A stretch of DNA of 51,820 nucleotides, taken from Candidatus Collierbacteria bacterium. Its GTDB lineage: Bacteria; Patescibacteriota; Microgenomatia; UBA1400; MFAQ01. The DNA lies in contig CAISER010000024.1 of the NCBI GenBank assembly GCA_903884375.1, positions 1-51,820 of the forward strand, given 5' to 3'. Position numbers and translations under genes: made by a program. This document shows positions 39,333 through 45,683 of this stretch, in pieces. The notes beneath the pieces are model-generated. The model did not search any database, was not told the origin of the DNA, and was given only the letters and a program-made list of their open reading frames with translations. How positions within the stretch are numbered: the stretch's first letter is position 1; the number at the start of each line of letters is the position of its first letter.

Positions 39333-40061
39333 ATGTTTAAAGATAAATATTCTCTCTACGCACCCGTTTTGGTGCTTTTATTAGTAGTGGCTTCTTTTTT
39401 CGTTGGTCGGTTGTCATCTAAAGTTTCACAACTTGAAAGTAATACTGGTGGAACCGATAAGGCGGCTGCAACTCCAACCACAACCGTATCAAAAATTTCT
39501 GTTGCAAACCTAAAAGTAATGGCAAAAGGATTTGGTTTGGATACAACCAAATTTAATAAATGTTTGGATGACGGAACAATGGCAAGTAAGGTCAGCGCTG
39601 AAAGTAAAGAAGGTCAATCCTTTGGAGTATCAGGGACCCCTTCGTTTCTTATTAATGGATTGTTGGTTGTAGGCTCTTTACCTCAAGCTGATTTTGAAAA
39701 AGTAATAGATGCTGAGATAAAGAACGGTTCTGGAGCTGTAGTAGCATCCCAAGTGACGGGAGAAAAAGTTACAAGACAGAAGACGACTTCGGGAACAGGA
39801 TATATTAAAGGATCTGTAAATGCTGCAGTTAAAATTATCGAGTATACCGACTTTGAGTGTCCCTACTGTAATATGGCATTCCCAACGATTGAAGCTTTGT
39901 TAGCCAAGTATGGAGATAAAATAAGTTTGGAATATCGCAGTTTCCCCTTAAGTTTTCATGCTGATGCTCAGAAAGCAGCTGAAGCCGCTCTTTGTGCTGG
40001 AGAGCAAGGGAAATTTTGGGAGATGCATGACAAAATGTTTACGGTCATGGCCGAGAAATAA
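39333..40061 (+). CDS. Membrane-anchored DsbA-family thioredoxin-fold protein with permuted motif order
   Basis: N-terminal TM; 'FGLDTTKFNKCLDDG...GVSGTPSFLINGLLVVG' precedes 'VKIIEYTDFECPYC...FPLSFHADAQKAAEAALCAGEQGKFWEMHDKMF'. Confidence 0.85.
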   Translation: MFKDKYSLYAPVLVLLLVVASFFVGRLSSKVSQLESNTGGTDKAAATPTTTVSKISVANLKVMAKGFGLDTTKFNKCLDDGTMASKVSAESKEGQSFGVSGTPSFLINGLLVVGSLPQADFEKVIDAEIKNGSGAVVASQVTGEKVTRQKTTSGTGYIKGSVNAAVKIIEYTDFECPYCNMAFPTIEALLAKYGDKISLEYRSFPLSFHADAQKAAEAALCAGEQGKFWEMHDKMFTVMAEK

Positions 40062-40155: not shown

Positions 40156-41040
40156 ATGAAAAAAGTATTGATGGGACTTGCTATTTTGGTGGTGCTATGG
40201 GGAGTATTCCCCGCACAAATTACCTTGGCTGAGTCAGGTAAAGTATTGCCATCAGTTGCCCCATTAACCACGGCTTCTATGGCATCAGAACCCTTGGTTA
40301 AAGAGGTGGATTTGACAGTCCCCAGCCAAGAAGGAGATAGGTTGACAAAATTAATGAAAGGACAAAAACTTTCCGGTTGGTGGGGAAAGGATGTTTTGAA
40401 GATTGCCATGCGAAAAGCCGTATCTGAAGGAGTTTCTCCAAATACTTTGGTTTTACTTTTCTTATTTCCCCTTGTGGCTGCCTTGGTGGCATTTTCGCGT
40501 CAGGTAATTGGTGTGTCCGGATTTGGTATTATTACTCCAGCACTTCTTTCGGTTGCTTTTTTGTCAACAGGAGGATTGGCAGGTTTGGTACTTTTGTTTT
40601 TTATTTTGGGTGTAGCCACTTTTGCCAGAATGCTAATTAAAAAGATAAGGATTCCCTATCTTTCAAAACTGGCAATATTGATTTGGGTGGTTTCGATGGC
40701 TGTTCTTTTGTTGCTTTTGACATCACCATTGATAGGACTGGAGAGATTAATGAGTGTGGGTATTTTTCCGATTATGCTTTTTGTGTTGTTGGCGGAAACA
40801 TTTATCGAGGCGCAAATTAGTAGAAACTTATCTACTTCAATGTGGATGACAATTGAAACGGTAATACTGGCATTGGTTGCTTATAAACTAATGAGTGCTC
40901 CTTGGATTCAATCACAGGTATTACTTCAACCTGAAATATCGGTAATTGTAATATTGATAGTGGACTTAATAATTGGAAAATATAAGGGGTTAAGATTGTC
41001 TGAAGTTTGGAGATTTAGAAAAATTGTTTTTAGAAAATGA
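40156..41040 (+). CDS. 7TM membrane protein of the type linked to inactive transglutaminase domains (7TM_transglut-like), short N-terminal ectodomain
   Basis: Signal-like N-terminus; 'PLVAALVAFSRQVIGVSGFGIITPALLSVAFLSTGGLAGLVLLFFILGVATFARMLIKKIRIPYLSKLAILIWVV'. Confidence 0.75.
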   Translation: MKKVLMGLAILVVLWGVFPAQITLAESGKVLPSVAPLTTASMASEPLVKEVDLTVPSQEGDRLTKLMKGQKLSGWWGKDVLKIAMRKAVSEGVSPNTLVLLFLFPLVAALVAFSRQVIGVSGFGIITPALLSVAFLSTGGLAGLVLLFFILGVATFARMLIKKIRIPYLSKLAILIWVVSMAVLLLLLTSPLIGLERLMSVGIFPIMLFVLLAETFIEAQISRNLSTSMWMTIETVILALVAYKLMSAPWIQSQVLLQPEISVIVILIVDLIIGKYKGLRLSEVWRFRKIVFRK

Positions 41041-42347
41041 TAGGAGATTGGAATTTTAGTGATATTTTAGGTTTAAATGATAGATTTTTTTCGTATACAA
41101 AATTGAATCATAAGAGAGCCAGAAGAAGAGCCGACGACAAACTGGTGACTAAGAAAATGTTAATGACGGCAAAAGTGCCTCATCCTAAGTTGTTGGGAAA
41201 AATCGGCAGCAGAAAAGGACTGGATAGTTTTGAATGGAATAAATTGAGTGGAGGGATTGTTATTAAGCCAGTTAAAGGATTCGGAGGTCAAGGAATATTA
41301 ATTTTAAAAAAATCAATAAAGGAAGAAAATAAATTCTTCTTACCTAATGGAAAATCGATTAGTCTGGAACAAATAAAAGTTCACGCGATGGATATTATTG
41401 AGGGTAGGTTTTCACACAATAATTTGCCAGATAAAGTGATGATTGAGGAAAGAATTTATATTCATCCGAAGTTTAAGAAATTATCTGCTGGAGGAACACC
41501 AGATGTGCGGATAATTGTTTATAACAAAGTGCCAGTAATGGCCATGTTGCGTTTACCAACAGAGGAATCTGAAGGTAAAGCTAACTTACACATGGGAGCA
41601 ATTGGATTGGGAATTGATATTGCTACAGGAATTACGACATATGGTGTTTACAAAAATGAACTCATTAAACGATTCCCCGATAGTGTAAAAAAAGTAAACG
41701 GTATATTTATTCCTCACTGGAACAAACTAATGTTGATGGCCGTAAAAACACAAATTATCAGTAAACTGAAATATTTGTCCGTAGATATGTTAATTGATAA
41801 GGATAAAGGCCCAGTGGTTTTGGAACTGAACGATCAACCTGGACTATCGATTCAACTTGCTAATATGGCTGGTCTCCGAAAACGACTGGAAAGAGTAGAG
41901 GGTTTAAAAATTGATACTCCCGAAAAAGGAGTGAAAATTGGTAGAGCCTTATTTGCTTCCGAGTTCGCTAGTCGAGTGAAATTTGATACCATGGAAAAAC
42001 CGGTGGTATCTGTTTTTGATCAAGTATTTCTAAAATCTTTTGGAGGGAAACGGCAGACAGTAAAAGTAAAACTTGATACGGGGGCATATAGTACAAGCAT
42101 TGATAGAAGATTGGCTGAAAAAATGGACTTACTTAATCCAAAGAACGTGATAATGGAAAAAAATTTCCGTTCAGCTCTTGGAGAACAAATGAGACAAATT
42201 GTGGGGGTGAATTTCCGACTTAAAGGTGTCAAAATTAAAACAGTGGCTTCAATTACCAATAGAGGACATCTTGATTATCAAATGATAATTGGTCGTAGAG
42301 ATTTAAAGGGATTTTTGGTTGATCCTATTTCCGATGAAGTTGATTAA
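41037..42347 (+). CDS. ATP-grasp (alpha-L-glutamate ligase-like) fused to C-terminal retropepsin-like/RimB-like (PF05618-type) protease domain
   Basis: 'GGIVIKPVKGFGGQGILIL', 'LELNDQPGLSIQLANMAGLRKRLE'; C-term 'VKVKLDTGAYSTSIDRRLAEKM...RGHLDYQMIIGRRDLKGFLVDP'. Confidence 0.85.
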   Translation: MIGDWNFSDILGLNDRFFSYTKLNHKRARRRADDKLVTKKMLMTAKVPHPKLLGKIGSRKGLDSFEWNKLSGGIVIKPVKGFGGQGILILKKSIKEENKFFLPNGKSISLEQIKVHAMDIIEGRFSHNNLPDKVMIEERIYIHPKFKKLSAGGTPDVRIIVYNKVPVMAMLRLPTEESEGKANLHMGAIGLGIDIATGITTYGVYKNELIKRFPDSVKKVNGIFIPHWNKLMLMAVKTQIISKLKYLSVDMLIDKDKGPVVLELNDQPGLSIQLANMAGLRKRLERVEGLKIDTPEKGVKIGRALFASEFASRVKFDTMEKPVVSVFDQVFLKSFGGKRQTVKVKLDTGAYSTSIDRRLAEKMDLLNPKNVIMEKNFRSALGEQMRQIVGVNFRLKGVKIKTVASITNRGHLDYQMIIGRRDLKGFLVDPISDEVD

Positions 42348-42361
42348 AAAAAATAATATAG

Positions 42362-43273
42362 ATGAAAATAGCCGTTTTTTATAGAATAGATTTTGAAGAG
42401 ACGAGAGCTCGTATGGATGAAGAGGCGGCAAAACTAGAATTGGACTTAACCTGGATAAGATATAAAGAATTGAAAGTTATTGGGGCGGATATTTTGTGGA
42501 GAGAAATCAATATTGCCGATTTTGATGGTTGGTATTTTCGTGCAGTAGGAAACGAATTGGAGTGGAGCAAACTACTGCAACTTTACGCAAAAAAACACAA
42601 CATACCCGTAATTGACGATTATTTGTTATCTGAAGGGCCTTTGCGAAGATTCAAATCGGTGATGAGTTGGCAGTTACAGGATGCCGGTGTCAAGTATCCA
42701 AAATCGAGTTATGTGGAAAGTATGTCAGATTTGGAAAAAGAATTAAAAAACTGGGATTTTCCTTTGATTGTAAAAATGTCAAAAGGAGGTAGACATGGGA
42801 TGGGTACATTTTTCTTGAAAGAAATGGCTGATTTTAAAAACCTGGAAGATAAACTTATTTCCAGAGATGAGATGTCTGAAGCCGAAGGGAAGAAAGGAAT
42901 AGATCTGAGAGGATTCCTGATTCAAGAATATATTGCCAATGATGGGGATTATCGAGTGATGACTGTGGGATACAAATGCATCGGAGGATTTAAGAGGATG
43001 CCTAAGGTGGAAAAATTAGTATTGAATCAAAGTGAAGGAAACTCGGTTGGACTTACGGAAGTACCAGTGAAAATAGCTAAAGTTGCTGAAGACGCAGCAA
43101 GAGTGTTGGGTGTGGAAATCGCCGGAACTGATTTGGTGATTAGTGATAAGACGGGTGAAGTTTATTTAATTGAAGTGAATGAAGCACCTCAATTTAAAGT
43201 ATTTGAAAAAAGGACAAAAATTAATGCGCCGAGAATTATATTGGAGTACTGTACAAAAAAGTTTAGAAAATAA
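42362..43273 (+). CDS. ATP-grasp, RimK-like
   Basis: 'FPLIVKMSKGGRHGMGTFFLK', 'LIQEYIANDGDYRVMTVG', 'EIAGTDLVISDKTGEVYLIEVNEAPQFK'. Confidence 0.87.
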   Translation: MKIAVFYRIDFEETRARMDEEAAKLELDLTWIRYKELKVIGADILWREINIADFDGWYFRAVGNELEWSKLLQLYAKKHNIPVIDDYLLSEGPLRRFKSVMSWQLQDAGVKYPKSSYVESMSDLEKELKNWDFPLIVKMSKGGRHGMGTFFLKEMADFKNLEDKLISRDEMSEAEGKKGIDLRGFLIQEYIANDGDYRVMTVGYKCIGGFKRMPKVEKLVLNQSEGNSVGLTEVPVKIAKVAEDAARVLGVEIAGTDLVISDKTGEVYLIEVNEAPQFKVFEKRTKINAPRIILEYCTKKFRK

Positions 43274-43274
43274 T

Positions 43275-44186
43275 ATGAAGATCTTAATTTTAACCAGATT
43301 TAGGGGGGAGTATGAGCCAAGAAGATTAGCTGAGGAGGCGAAAGGAAAAGGGTATGAGGTGGACAGGGTTAATTATGAACACGTTCGTTTGGGAGTAAGC
43401 CCTTTGGGGAAACCGGTAATTGACTTAATGACCGGAAGAAAAATTGAAGATTATGATTTAGTGATTCCTCGTGCAGCGTCAAAAAGAGGAGGCGAGTCGA
43501 TGATGGGAGTTAAGTCGGTGATATTAGAGTACATCGATAAATTAACAAGGAATAAACCAAAAGTAATTAATGGAGAAAGTTTTAGACTTTATCCTTTAAT
43601 GGGGAAACTAGAGCAAGGAATTCTATTAGCACAGGCAGAAATGCCGGTTGTGCCATTTGCTTCGTTTAACGGGAAAAAAGGATGGAAGAGATTTTTGGAA
43701 GTGGTGAGCAAACGGAAACAGCCATTCTTGCCGGTAATGGTTAAAGCGCGTTTTGGAAGCCATGGAAAAAATGTAAAATTAGCCGAGACTTATGATAAGT
43801 TGGTGAAGTTGTCGCAAAAATATAGTGAAGGAGATGTGTTGATTCAGCCTGTTTTAACAGTTCGTCGATGGTATCGAGTGTTGGTATTAAAAGGGAAAGT
43901 ATTGGGAATGATGAAGCATAGACAAAAGGATAAGTTTCAGACTGAGACAATTCAAATTGAAACGGCTTTAATTAAACCTAAGTTTACCGTAGAACAAATG
44001 AAAGAGCTGGAAATATTGGCAATCAAAGCGACGAAAATATTGAAGGCGGATTTTGCTGGATTGGATGTAGCATGGGATGAAACACTACAAGGATGGAGAA
44101 TTTTTGAAGTGAACAGAACTGCGCAGTTTAAATGGTTTGAAAAAGCATATCCGGATATTAATGTGGCAAGAGAGATTGTTGGATAA
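43275..44186 (+). CDS. ATP-grasp, RimK-like
   Basis: 'FLPVMVKARFGSHGKNVKLAET', 'LIQPVLTVRRWYRVLVLKGK', 'FAGLDVAWDETLQGWRIFEVNRTAQFK'. Start at MKILILTRF; the ORF-track start overlaps the upstream gene. Confidence 0.87.
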   Translation: MKILILTRFRGEYEPRRLAEEAKGKGYEVDRVNYEHVRLGVSPLGKPVIDLMTGRKIEDYDLVIPRAASKRGGESMMGVKSVILEYIDKLTRNKPKVINGESFRLYPLMGKLEQGILLAQAEMPVVPFASFNGKKGWKRFLEVVSKRKQPFLPVMVKARFGSHGKNVKLAETYDKLVKLSQKYSEGDVLIQPVLTVRRWYRVLVLKGKVLGMMKHRQKDKFQTETIQIETALIKPKFTVEQMKELEILAIKATKILKADFAGLDVAWDETLQGWRIFEVNRTAQFKWFEKAYPDINVAREIVG

Positions 44187-44240: not shown

Positions 44241-45683
44241 GTGAAGAGATTAATTGTTTTTGTCTTGGTTGTTGTTTTGTATGGAGTGGGAATTTTTGGC
44301 GGATTTATCCAAGATGATCTAAAGGTGATTCCCGGAGATCCTGAAATGGGGAGAGTGACCGCTTTGGCATCTTCCTTTACAAGGCCATATTACTACATGG
44401 ATGGAGGAAACGCTGGTGCTTATCGACCGATTACAAGTTTTAGTTTTTATTTAAATGCTCTATTAACCGGTAATAAAGCATGGGGGTTTCGGTTGGTAAA
44501 TATATTACTTTATGCAAATGTATGTTTATTAATTTTTGAACTACTTAAAAAATTGTTTTCGAAAAACATTGCTTTTTTGGCTGCGATGTTATTTATTGTG
44601 TTACCAATTCACACTGAAGCGGTTAACAATATTGTGGGGAGAGCGGAGATTTTATCTTTAGGATTTGTTATTTTAGCGATATTGAAACAAGAACAAAGAA
44701 AATGGGAAATGAGTGCAGGAATGTTTTTGTTGGCTTTGTTTTCTAAAGAAACGGCAATTATTGGTTTACCGATATTAATTTATTTGATAATTTTGAGGAA
44801 AGAAACTATTGAGACAAAAATGGGAATTATTTCTTTTTATGTATTAATTATGGCGTGTTATTTGGTTTTGAGAATAATGATATTGGGAAGTGGCGGTCTG
44901 GAAAATAACGCGACAATGGTAGAAAATCCTTTAAAGTATGTGACGACTTCACAGCGAGTAATGAATGCTTTTTCCTTGGTTCCTTTTGGTATTGGCAAAG
45001 TTTTTTTCCCTTTTCAGCTATCTTATGATTATTCCTTTAATGAATTGAAGTTGATGACAAATTGGTTTAACCGACAAGTAATAATTGGCATTGGTTTGGT
45101 GTTATTGTCTTTGGGAAGTATGTTTACAAACTTGAGAAAAAACAAAATATGGGTACTGGGGCAGGTATTTTTTTGGGGACCATTAATAATTACCGGAAAC
45201 TTTGTGTTTCCTATCGGGACAATTTTTGGAGAGAGGCTTTGGTTTTGGCCGAGTTTGGGATTAGTAATGATGGTGGTGAGTATTATTAATCGGTATAGAT
45301 TTATTCATTGGTTCCACTCCCTCACAATAATGATGTCGGTTTTAGTAATGGTGTTTTTTGTTGGGAGAACTTTTGTTCGCAACTTGAACTGGTTATCTCA
45401 AGATAGTTTGTTTATTCATGATGCCTCGTATGTAAAAGAGAGTGTGCTTACACAGAATAATGCAGCAGCGATGTATATGATAAGGAATGATTTGGTAAAA
45501 GGAAAAGAATATTTGGATAAAGCAGACACAATATATCCAAAATATCCAGAATTAATGAATAACTGGGGAATGTATTTTTTGTGGAAGGGAGACAAGGAGA
45601 AGTCTAGACAAAAATTTGAAGAATGTTTAATAGAAAAACCAGGATATTATTTATGCGAGAGTAATATTAATTTATTAAAGTAG
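44241..45683 (+). CDS. TMTC-like membrane glycosyltransferase with C-terminal TPR-like region
   Basis: 'GFIQDDLKVI', 'YRPITSFSFYLNALLTGNKAWGFRLVNILLY', 'FIVLPIHTEAVNNIVGRAEIL', 'LALFSKETAIIGLP'. Confidence 0.8.
   Translation: MKRLIVFVLVVVLYGVGIFGGFIQDDLKVIPGDPEMGRVTALASSFTRPYYYMDGGNAGAYRPITSFSFYLNALLTGNKAWGFRLVNILLYANVCLLIFELLKKLFSKNIAFLAAMLFIVLPIHTEAVNNIVGRAEILSLGFVILAILKQEQRKWEMSAGMFLLALFSKETAIIGLPILIYLIILRKETIETKMGIISFYVLIMACYLVLRIMILGSGGLENNATMVENPLKYVTTSQRVMNAFSLVPFGIGKVFFPFQLSYDYSFNELKLMTNWFNRQVIIGIGLVLLSLGSMFTNLRKNKIWVLGQVFFWGPLIITGNFVFPIGTIFGERLWFWPSLGLVMMVVSIINRYRFIHWFHSLTIMMSVLVMVFFVGRTFVRNLNWLSQDSLFIHDASYVKESVLTQNNAAAMYMIRNDLVKGKEYLDKADTIYPKYPELMNNWGMYFLWKGDKEKSRQKFEECLIEKPGYYLCESNINLLK

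Follow-up and report, generated by a model that had tools for sequence, protein, structure and literature searches.

The 51,820-nucleotide stretch of DNA analysed here (contig CAISER010000024.1 of assembly GCA_903884375.1, hereafter the window) belongs to a Candidatus Collierbacteria genome of the Candidate Phyla Radiation (CPR), 0.81 Mb in size and 97% complete. At 40156–44186 it carries a compact cluster encoding a seven-transmembrane (7TM) protein, a fusion of an ATP-grasp ligase with a retropepsin-like peptidase, and two further RimK-like ATP-grasp ligases. The four genes are closely packed on the + strand, as open reading frames at 40156–41040, 41037–42347, 42362–43273 and 43179–44186, in agreement with an earlier note that had described four tightly packed genes, the first pair (7TM and fusion) overlapping by 4 nt (ATGA). 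For the last gene, the most likely start is the ATG at 43275 rather than 43179, because homology to RimK_N begins at 43275 and because the upstream start would overlap the preceding gene by 95 nt. The closest named relatives carrying the locus are Candidatus Collierbacteria, whose fusion protein shares 63% identity with that of the window. The domain identities proposed in the earlier note, i.e. a 7TM protein of the transglutaminase-linked type, an alpha-L-glutamate-ligase-like ATP-grasp fused to a retropepsin and two RimK-like ATP-grasps, were all recovered by the profile searches reported below.

The second gene (41037–42347, +) encodes a protein of 436 amino acids (aa) in which Pfam, NCBIfam and AlphaFold2 (AF2) delineate an RloC-like ATP-grasp ligase followed by a C-terminal RloA/RimB-like retropepsin, the AF2 model resolving two domains with a predicted local distance difference test score (pLDDT) of 83. 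The ligase domain (aa 8–310; 41058–41966, +) matches ATPgrasp_ST (PF14397, 224 bits) and the alpha-L-glutamate ligase-like model TIGR02291 (269.9 bits over 303 of 317 positions, below the curated 314.2), and its best Foldseek matches are ArgX (with LysW/Glu) and the poly-alpha-glutamate synthetase RimK. Across 222 homologues, dead-protease ones included, K35, K77, D156, R172, D250 and E263 are invariant and N265 nearly so, while K35, K77, D156, R172, N183, D250, E263, G269, Q273 and R283 are invariant both in the intact-loop and in the broken-loop classes defined below.

The retropepsin-like domain (about aa 318–432; 41988–42332, +) yields weak Pfam matches (PF13650, PF13975 and PF05618, E about 2–5e-4), is matched by the NCBIfam RloA3 model, and resembles the RloA-type structure 9g59 by profile and motif and the Legionella structure 2pma by motif. 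Its catalytic loop, K345-L-D347-T-G349 (42069–42083, +), is intact. Alignment via 9g59/2pma, together with equal spacing, maps K46, D48, R114 and R137 of RloA onto K345, D347, R386 (42192–42194, +) and R409 (42261–42263, +), D48 being catalytic in RloA and K46, R114 and R137 its poly-glutamate contacts; the two arginines lie 23 residues apart in either protein. Among the 132 homologues with a D[TS]GA loop, the K46 equivalent is Lys in 127 and Arg in 4, the D48 and R114 equivalents are kept in 132/132 and that of R137 in 131/132; most of the broken-loop set has lost the equivalents of K46 and R114. As the C-terminal domain of a cytosolic ligase, the retropepsin half should itself be cytosolic. 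Longer fusions of 850–944 aa (G156/L249, G321/L260 and L190) combine an intact D-T-G loop with several hundred extra residues.

The first gene (40156–41040, +) encodes an RloB-like 7TM protein of 294 aa, identified by PF14402 (7TM_transglut, 86.3 bits over aa 99–290), by its AF2 helices and by residues invariant in 17 relatives (R115, E214, P259-E260 and E283). The RloB NCBIfam model matches over the 7TM part only, a Pfam search of the protein returned neither PF14400 nor a transglutaminase domain, and PF14401 (RLAN) had no match in the window genome, nor in the controls. The AF2 model (pLDDT 78) comprises an N-terminal signal/anchor helix, a low-confidence linker of ~60 aa and seven long membrane helices. 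CPR 7TM proteins fall into three size classes of about 520, about 300 (that of the window protein) and about 220 aa. Those of the ~500–525 aa class that were checked (L073, L078, L071) bear an N-terminal PKD domain, and in the 180 aa between PKD and 7TM Pfam detects no transglutaminase domain. In family f11 loci (L051, L054–L057, L060, L067, L068), a conserved, very hydrophobic protein of ~120 aa is encoded just upstream of the 7TM gene.

Conservation was assessed in about 460 genomes, mostly metagenome-assembled drafts, a sample short of a full CPR survey. PF14402 was detected in 80 of 89 relatives and in 111 of 381 genomes sampled from the phylum as a whole, and a profile search recovered the fusion in 115 of these 381, among them all 111 with PF14402. 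In 169 of the 175 genomes fetched, the 7TM gene is directly succeeded by the fusion gene in the same orientation (median gap 2 nt, 62 overlapping), and at least some of the six exceptions are contig ends or unlinked copies. The pairing of 7TM and fusion genes is near-obligate.

The RimK-like ligases are both of 303 aa. The first (42362–43273, +; PF08443, 62.8 bits) retains K138, E271 and N273 in the family alignment and is probably active, judging from these residues; the second (43275–44186, +; PF08443, 54.1 bits; PF18030, 38.7 bits) keeps, in the same type of alignment, the conserved Lys of the ATP site and the E-x-N motif. Against the RimK equivalog model (S6--L-glutamate ligase) the two score 31–36 bits for a cut-off of 331, the fusion not being listed, and the window genome encodes no RimK-family ATP-grasp other than the fusion and these two proteins. 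ATP-grasps of this accessory kind lie within 4.5 kb in only 34 of 169 loci, and two of them at high score occur only in the window family and one neighbour (G017/L062). Since the accessory ligases are narrowly distributed and the 7TM and fusion genes widespread, the latter two constitute the core of the system. The earlier note had taken the three ligase domains together and proposed co-conservation as a check: this was verified for the 7TM and fusion genes. The two RimK-like ligases are lineage-specific accessories and were rejected as core components. Other RimK-like ATP-grasps are found downstream of the core in some other lineages. In L095 (3925–4914) an ATP-grasp resembling the ligase portion of cyanophycin synthetase (204 bits) adjoins the fusion, and in L099 (9075–10055) an ATP-grasp of similar size occupies the same position.

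Alignment of 40 fusions of the window's order revealed that in three families the catalytic Asp is an Asn (mostly NTGR), with the ligase intact. The next gene in these Asn-loop loci encodes a protein of roughly 320 aa that Pfam assigns to MATCAP, the microtubule-associated tyrosine carboxypeptidase family, and in another CPR group the fusion reaches ~790 aa, its degenerate retropepsin being followed by a MATCAP domain. Loop states were combined with whole-genome MATCAP searches for 167 genomes, any loop but D-[TS]-G being scored as broken, including that of five DTKR proteins in which the Gly is lost. The loop is broken in 75 of the 167 genomes, and all 75 encode a MATCAP, which in most cases is the adjacent gene or forms a further part of the fusion protein. 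It is intact in the remaining 92, of which 26 also encode a MATCAP and 66 do not; the latter include the window genome, where the whole-genome search found no MATCAP domain (HExxxH, T[EQ]EGL). The MATCAP active-site motifs HExxTH and T[EQ]EGL are retained in most. A dead retropepsin is linked to the presence of MATCAP (Fisher test, 3e-25, relatedness ignored), and the broken state arose more than once: it forms three groups, hence three origins, on the best ligase tree, a single origin is rejected (p-AU 4.9e-5), and the starred branches of a smaller tree by themselves force two changes.

Both peptidase families have characterised members acting on poly-glutamate. The human MATCAP-family enzymes TMCP1/2 shorten tubulin polyglutamate chains (PMC10499314), RloA cleaves runs of at least eight Glu (PMC12239564), and RimB, a cytosolic relative of RloA, cleaves poly-Glu, raises the ATPase activity of RimK about fourfold and stimulates its synthesis of poly-alpha-Glu (PMC11957791). 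The stimulation of RimK by RimB through direct contact, and the retention of the dead domain as a fold over long evolutionary times, could suggest that the retropepsin-like domain serves the ligase chiefly as an allosteric or structural element, with incidental proteolysis and a MATCAP link reflecting shared ancestry. We consider this quite improbable, because in the absence of MATCAP both D[TS]G and the residues contacting the substrate hardly ever vary, and because broken loops were never seen without MATCAP (75/75) and have more than one origin. A second, non-catalytic role such as RimB-like stimulation of RimK would nevertheless fit the retention of dead retropepsins.

The fusion of ligase and peptidase provides direct evidence of a shared substrate, and the ligase is always tied, in cis or in an operon, to one of two unrelated peptidases with poly-glutamate-trimming relatives. 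On this basis, we consider it probable that the locus encodes an Rlo-type system for reversible, membrane-linked modification of the polyglutamylation type, whose writer and eraser share one polypeptide. The earlier note's proposal that amino acids are added by a system with a membrane partner is supported, and its one-way pathway with three ligases gives way to a writer-eraser cycle, which fits better since ligase and peptidase are joined in the fusion. In the cycle that we infer, comprising the substrate, the reversibility and the roles of the 7TM and accessory proteins, the RloC-like ATP-grasp half would spend ATP to extend an amino-acid chain, on an acceptor or as a free polymer, most likely by adding alpha-linked glutamate. 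The fused retropepsin half, presumably active as a dimer by analogy, would trim such chains and might also stimulate the ligase as RimB does RimK. The RloB-like 7TM protein may be the partner in the membrane by which the product is received, moved or sensed, and the two accessory RimK-like ligases would probably initiate the chain or attach another kind of residue.

Under the same writer-eraser logic, the residue might be other than glutamate or the chain mixed, the product being a short peptide metabolite or a cell-envelope modification. ATP-grasp specificity is unreadable from sequence, the ligase domain is also close to LysX/ArgX and cyanophycin synthetase, and some relatives have cyanophycin-synthetase-like or other RimK-like ligases next door. 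Set against this, both eraser families include enzymes that act on poly-glutamate and the poly-Glu-contact residues of RloA are conserved, leaving this version a modest chance of being correct. A RimK/RimB-type system modifying ribosomal protein S6 appears extremely improbable: RimK-like ligases do accompany a RimB-like protease, and the genome's only RimK-family proteins are those of the cluster, but the S6 of the window genome ends in ...DDKLLRFLLIRI (...LLRFLLIRI), with no acidic C-terminal tail, making S6 an unlikely acceptor, the ligase is TIGR02291/RloC-like and far under the RimK equivalog cut-off, and RimBK has no 7TM partner (PMC12239564).

Several points weigh against the polyglutamylation cycle favoured here. 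Many ATP-grasp ligases share the fold, so that glutamate is a putative substrate. No acceptor was found, in a genome that was not searched for acidic-tailed acceptors. For the predicted 7TM fold, the PDB yields nothing better than E 2, on which ground a known transporter fold was also rejected. RloA is secreted in Pseudomonas and the retropepsin of the window is predicted to be cytosolic, so that the topology differs from the model system. In the independent-pairs test no opposite pair was encountered, and about three losses are too few to reach 0.05. Finally, the 26 genomes combining an intact retropepsin loop with a MATCAP somewhere in the genome indicate that the two peptidases are not strictly exclusive, and a strict exclusion was rejected.

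Extending the same cycle to the whole radiation is a more tentative step, on which our judgement is nearly balanced, leaning slightly against. Under this extension, reversible polyglutamylation by a ligase and an eraser in one polypeptide, with a 7TM partner, would operate CPR-wide; the eraser would have been exchanged at least twice, from an aspartic retropepsin to a MATCAP metallocarboxypeptidase, with the dead retropepsin kept as a ligase activator, as a bacterial parallel to the tubulin ligase/MATCAP cycle. The swap of one poly-glutamate-trimming peptidase family for another points to the product, and the active, dead and replaced erasers offer natural controls that make the chemistry testable. 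Roughly 30% of the CPR genomes sampled have the Rlo-type core, a share that rises to about 90% within the window's order. If the proposal is true, many bacteria with minimal genomes would have reversible polyglutamylation as a core function, and bacteria would possess an ATP-grasp ligase opposed by MATCAP. Our literature search, with subscription papers outside its reach, found no description of the system in CPR or of a MATCAP/ATP-grasp fusion.

The cluster is followed at 44241–45683 by a gene for a PMT_2-type membrane glycosyltransferase that ends in a TPR-like stretch and is retained in several family members. Ahead of the cluster, a DsbA-like protein (39333–40061, +) is a natural circular permutant of DsbA, with the cis-Pro half (GTPS, aa 101) preceding the CPYC half (aa 176). 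The permuted order recurs in family members L032, L035, L036, L037, L039, L040 and L041, and the canonical order (CxxC near 95, cis-Pro near 215) is found in other families, e.g. L200, L045 and L218.

The earlier note had compared the cluster with neighbourhoods of the type that Iyer et al. in 2009 reportedly described, combining ATP-grasp, 7TM and retropepsin-like proteins and predicted to tag proteins or make peptides. The gene set of the window is of this general type, and the best comparison, which that note did not name, is RloABC. RloABC of Pseudomonas aeruginosa, the closest described system, was named in 2025, with its substrate unknown and RloB reported as 96% proteobacterial. It has a role in hypo-osmotic tolerance: strains without any RloA protease are impaired, and deleting rloB or rloC rescues their osmotic defect (PMC12239564). 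Both systems unite in one operon an RloB-type 7TM protein, an RloC-type ATP-grasp and an RloA-type retropepsin with D-T-G and poly-Glu contacts. RloA, however, is a separate, secreted protein with a signal peptide, whereas the retropepsin of the window is fused to a cytosolic ligase, and RloB has an inactive transglutaminase fused to its 7TM part, which the window protein lacks. The window further adds two RimK-like ligases and lies in CPR rather than Proteobacteria, and in many of its relatives MATCAP replaces the retropepsin. Because neither a secreted retropepsin nor a transglutaminase domain is present, both of them defining features, the system is Rlo-like and not an RloABC. With RimBK (PMC11957791) it shares the pairing of an ATP-grasp ligase, putatively a glutamate ligase in the window, with a cytosolic retropepsin that, in RimBK, cuts poly-Glu and stimulates the ligase; RimB and RimK are separate proteins with no 7TM partner, while the window ligase belongs to the RloC branch and the window S6 lacks the acidic tail. 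The MATCAP domains of CPR also match, below cut-off, TIGR02421 (QEGLA-motif proteins, the bacterial name of the MATCAP family), which is absent from the window genome. In the tubulin tail cycle, TTL/TTLL ligases are opposed by MATCAP/TMCP carboxypeptidases (PMC10499314). The window system is bacterial, has no tubulin and uses a retropepsin instead of MATCAP; its logic, an ATP-grasp ligase opposed by a peptidase, is analogous although the ligase is not orthologous, and in CPR relatives the opposing peptidase is a homologue of MATCAP, either adjacent to the ligase or fused with it.

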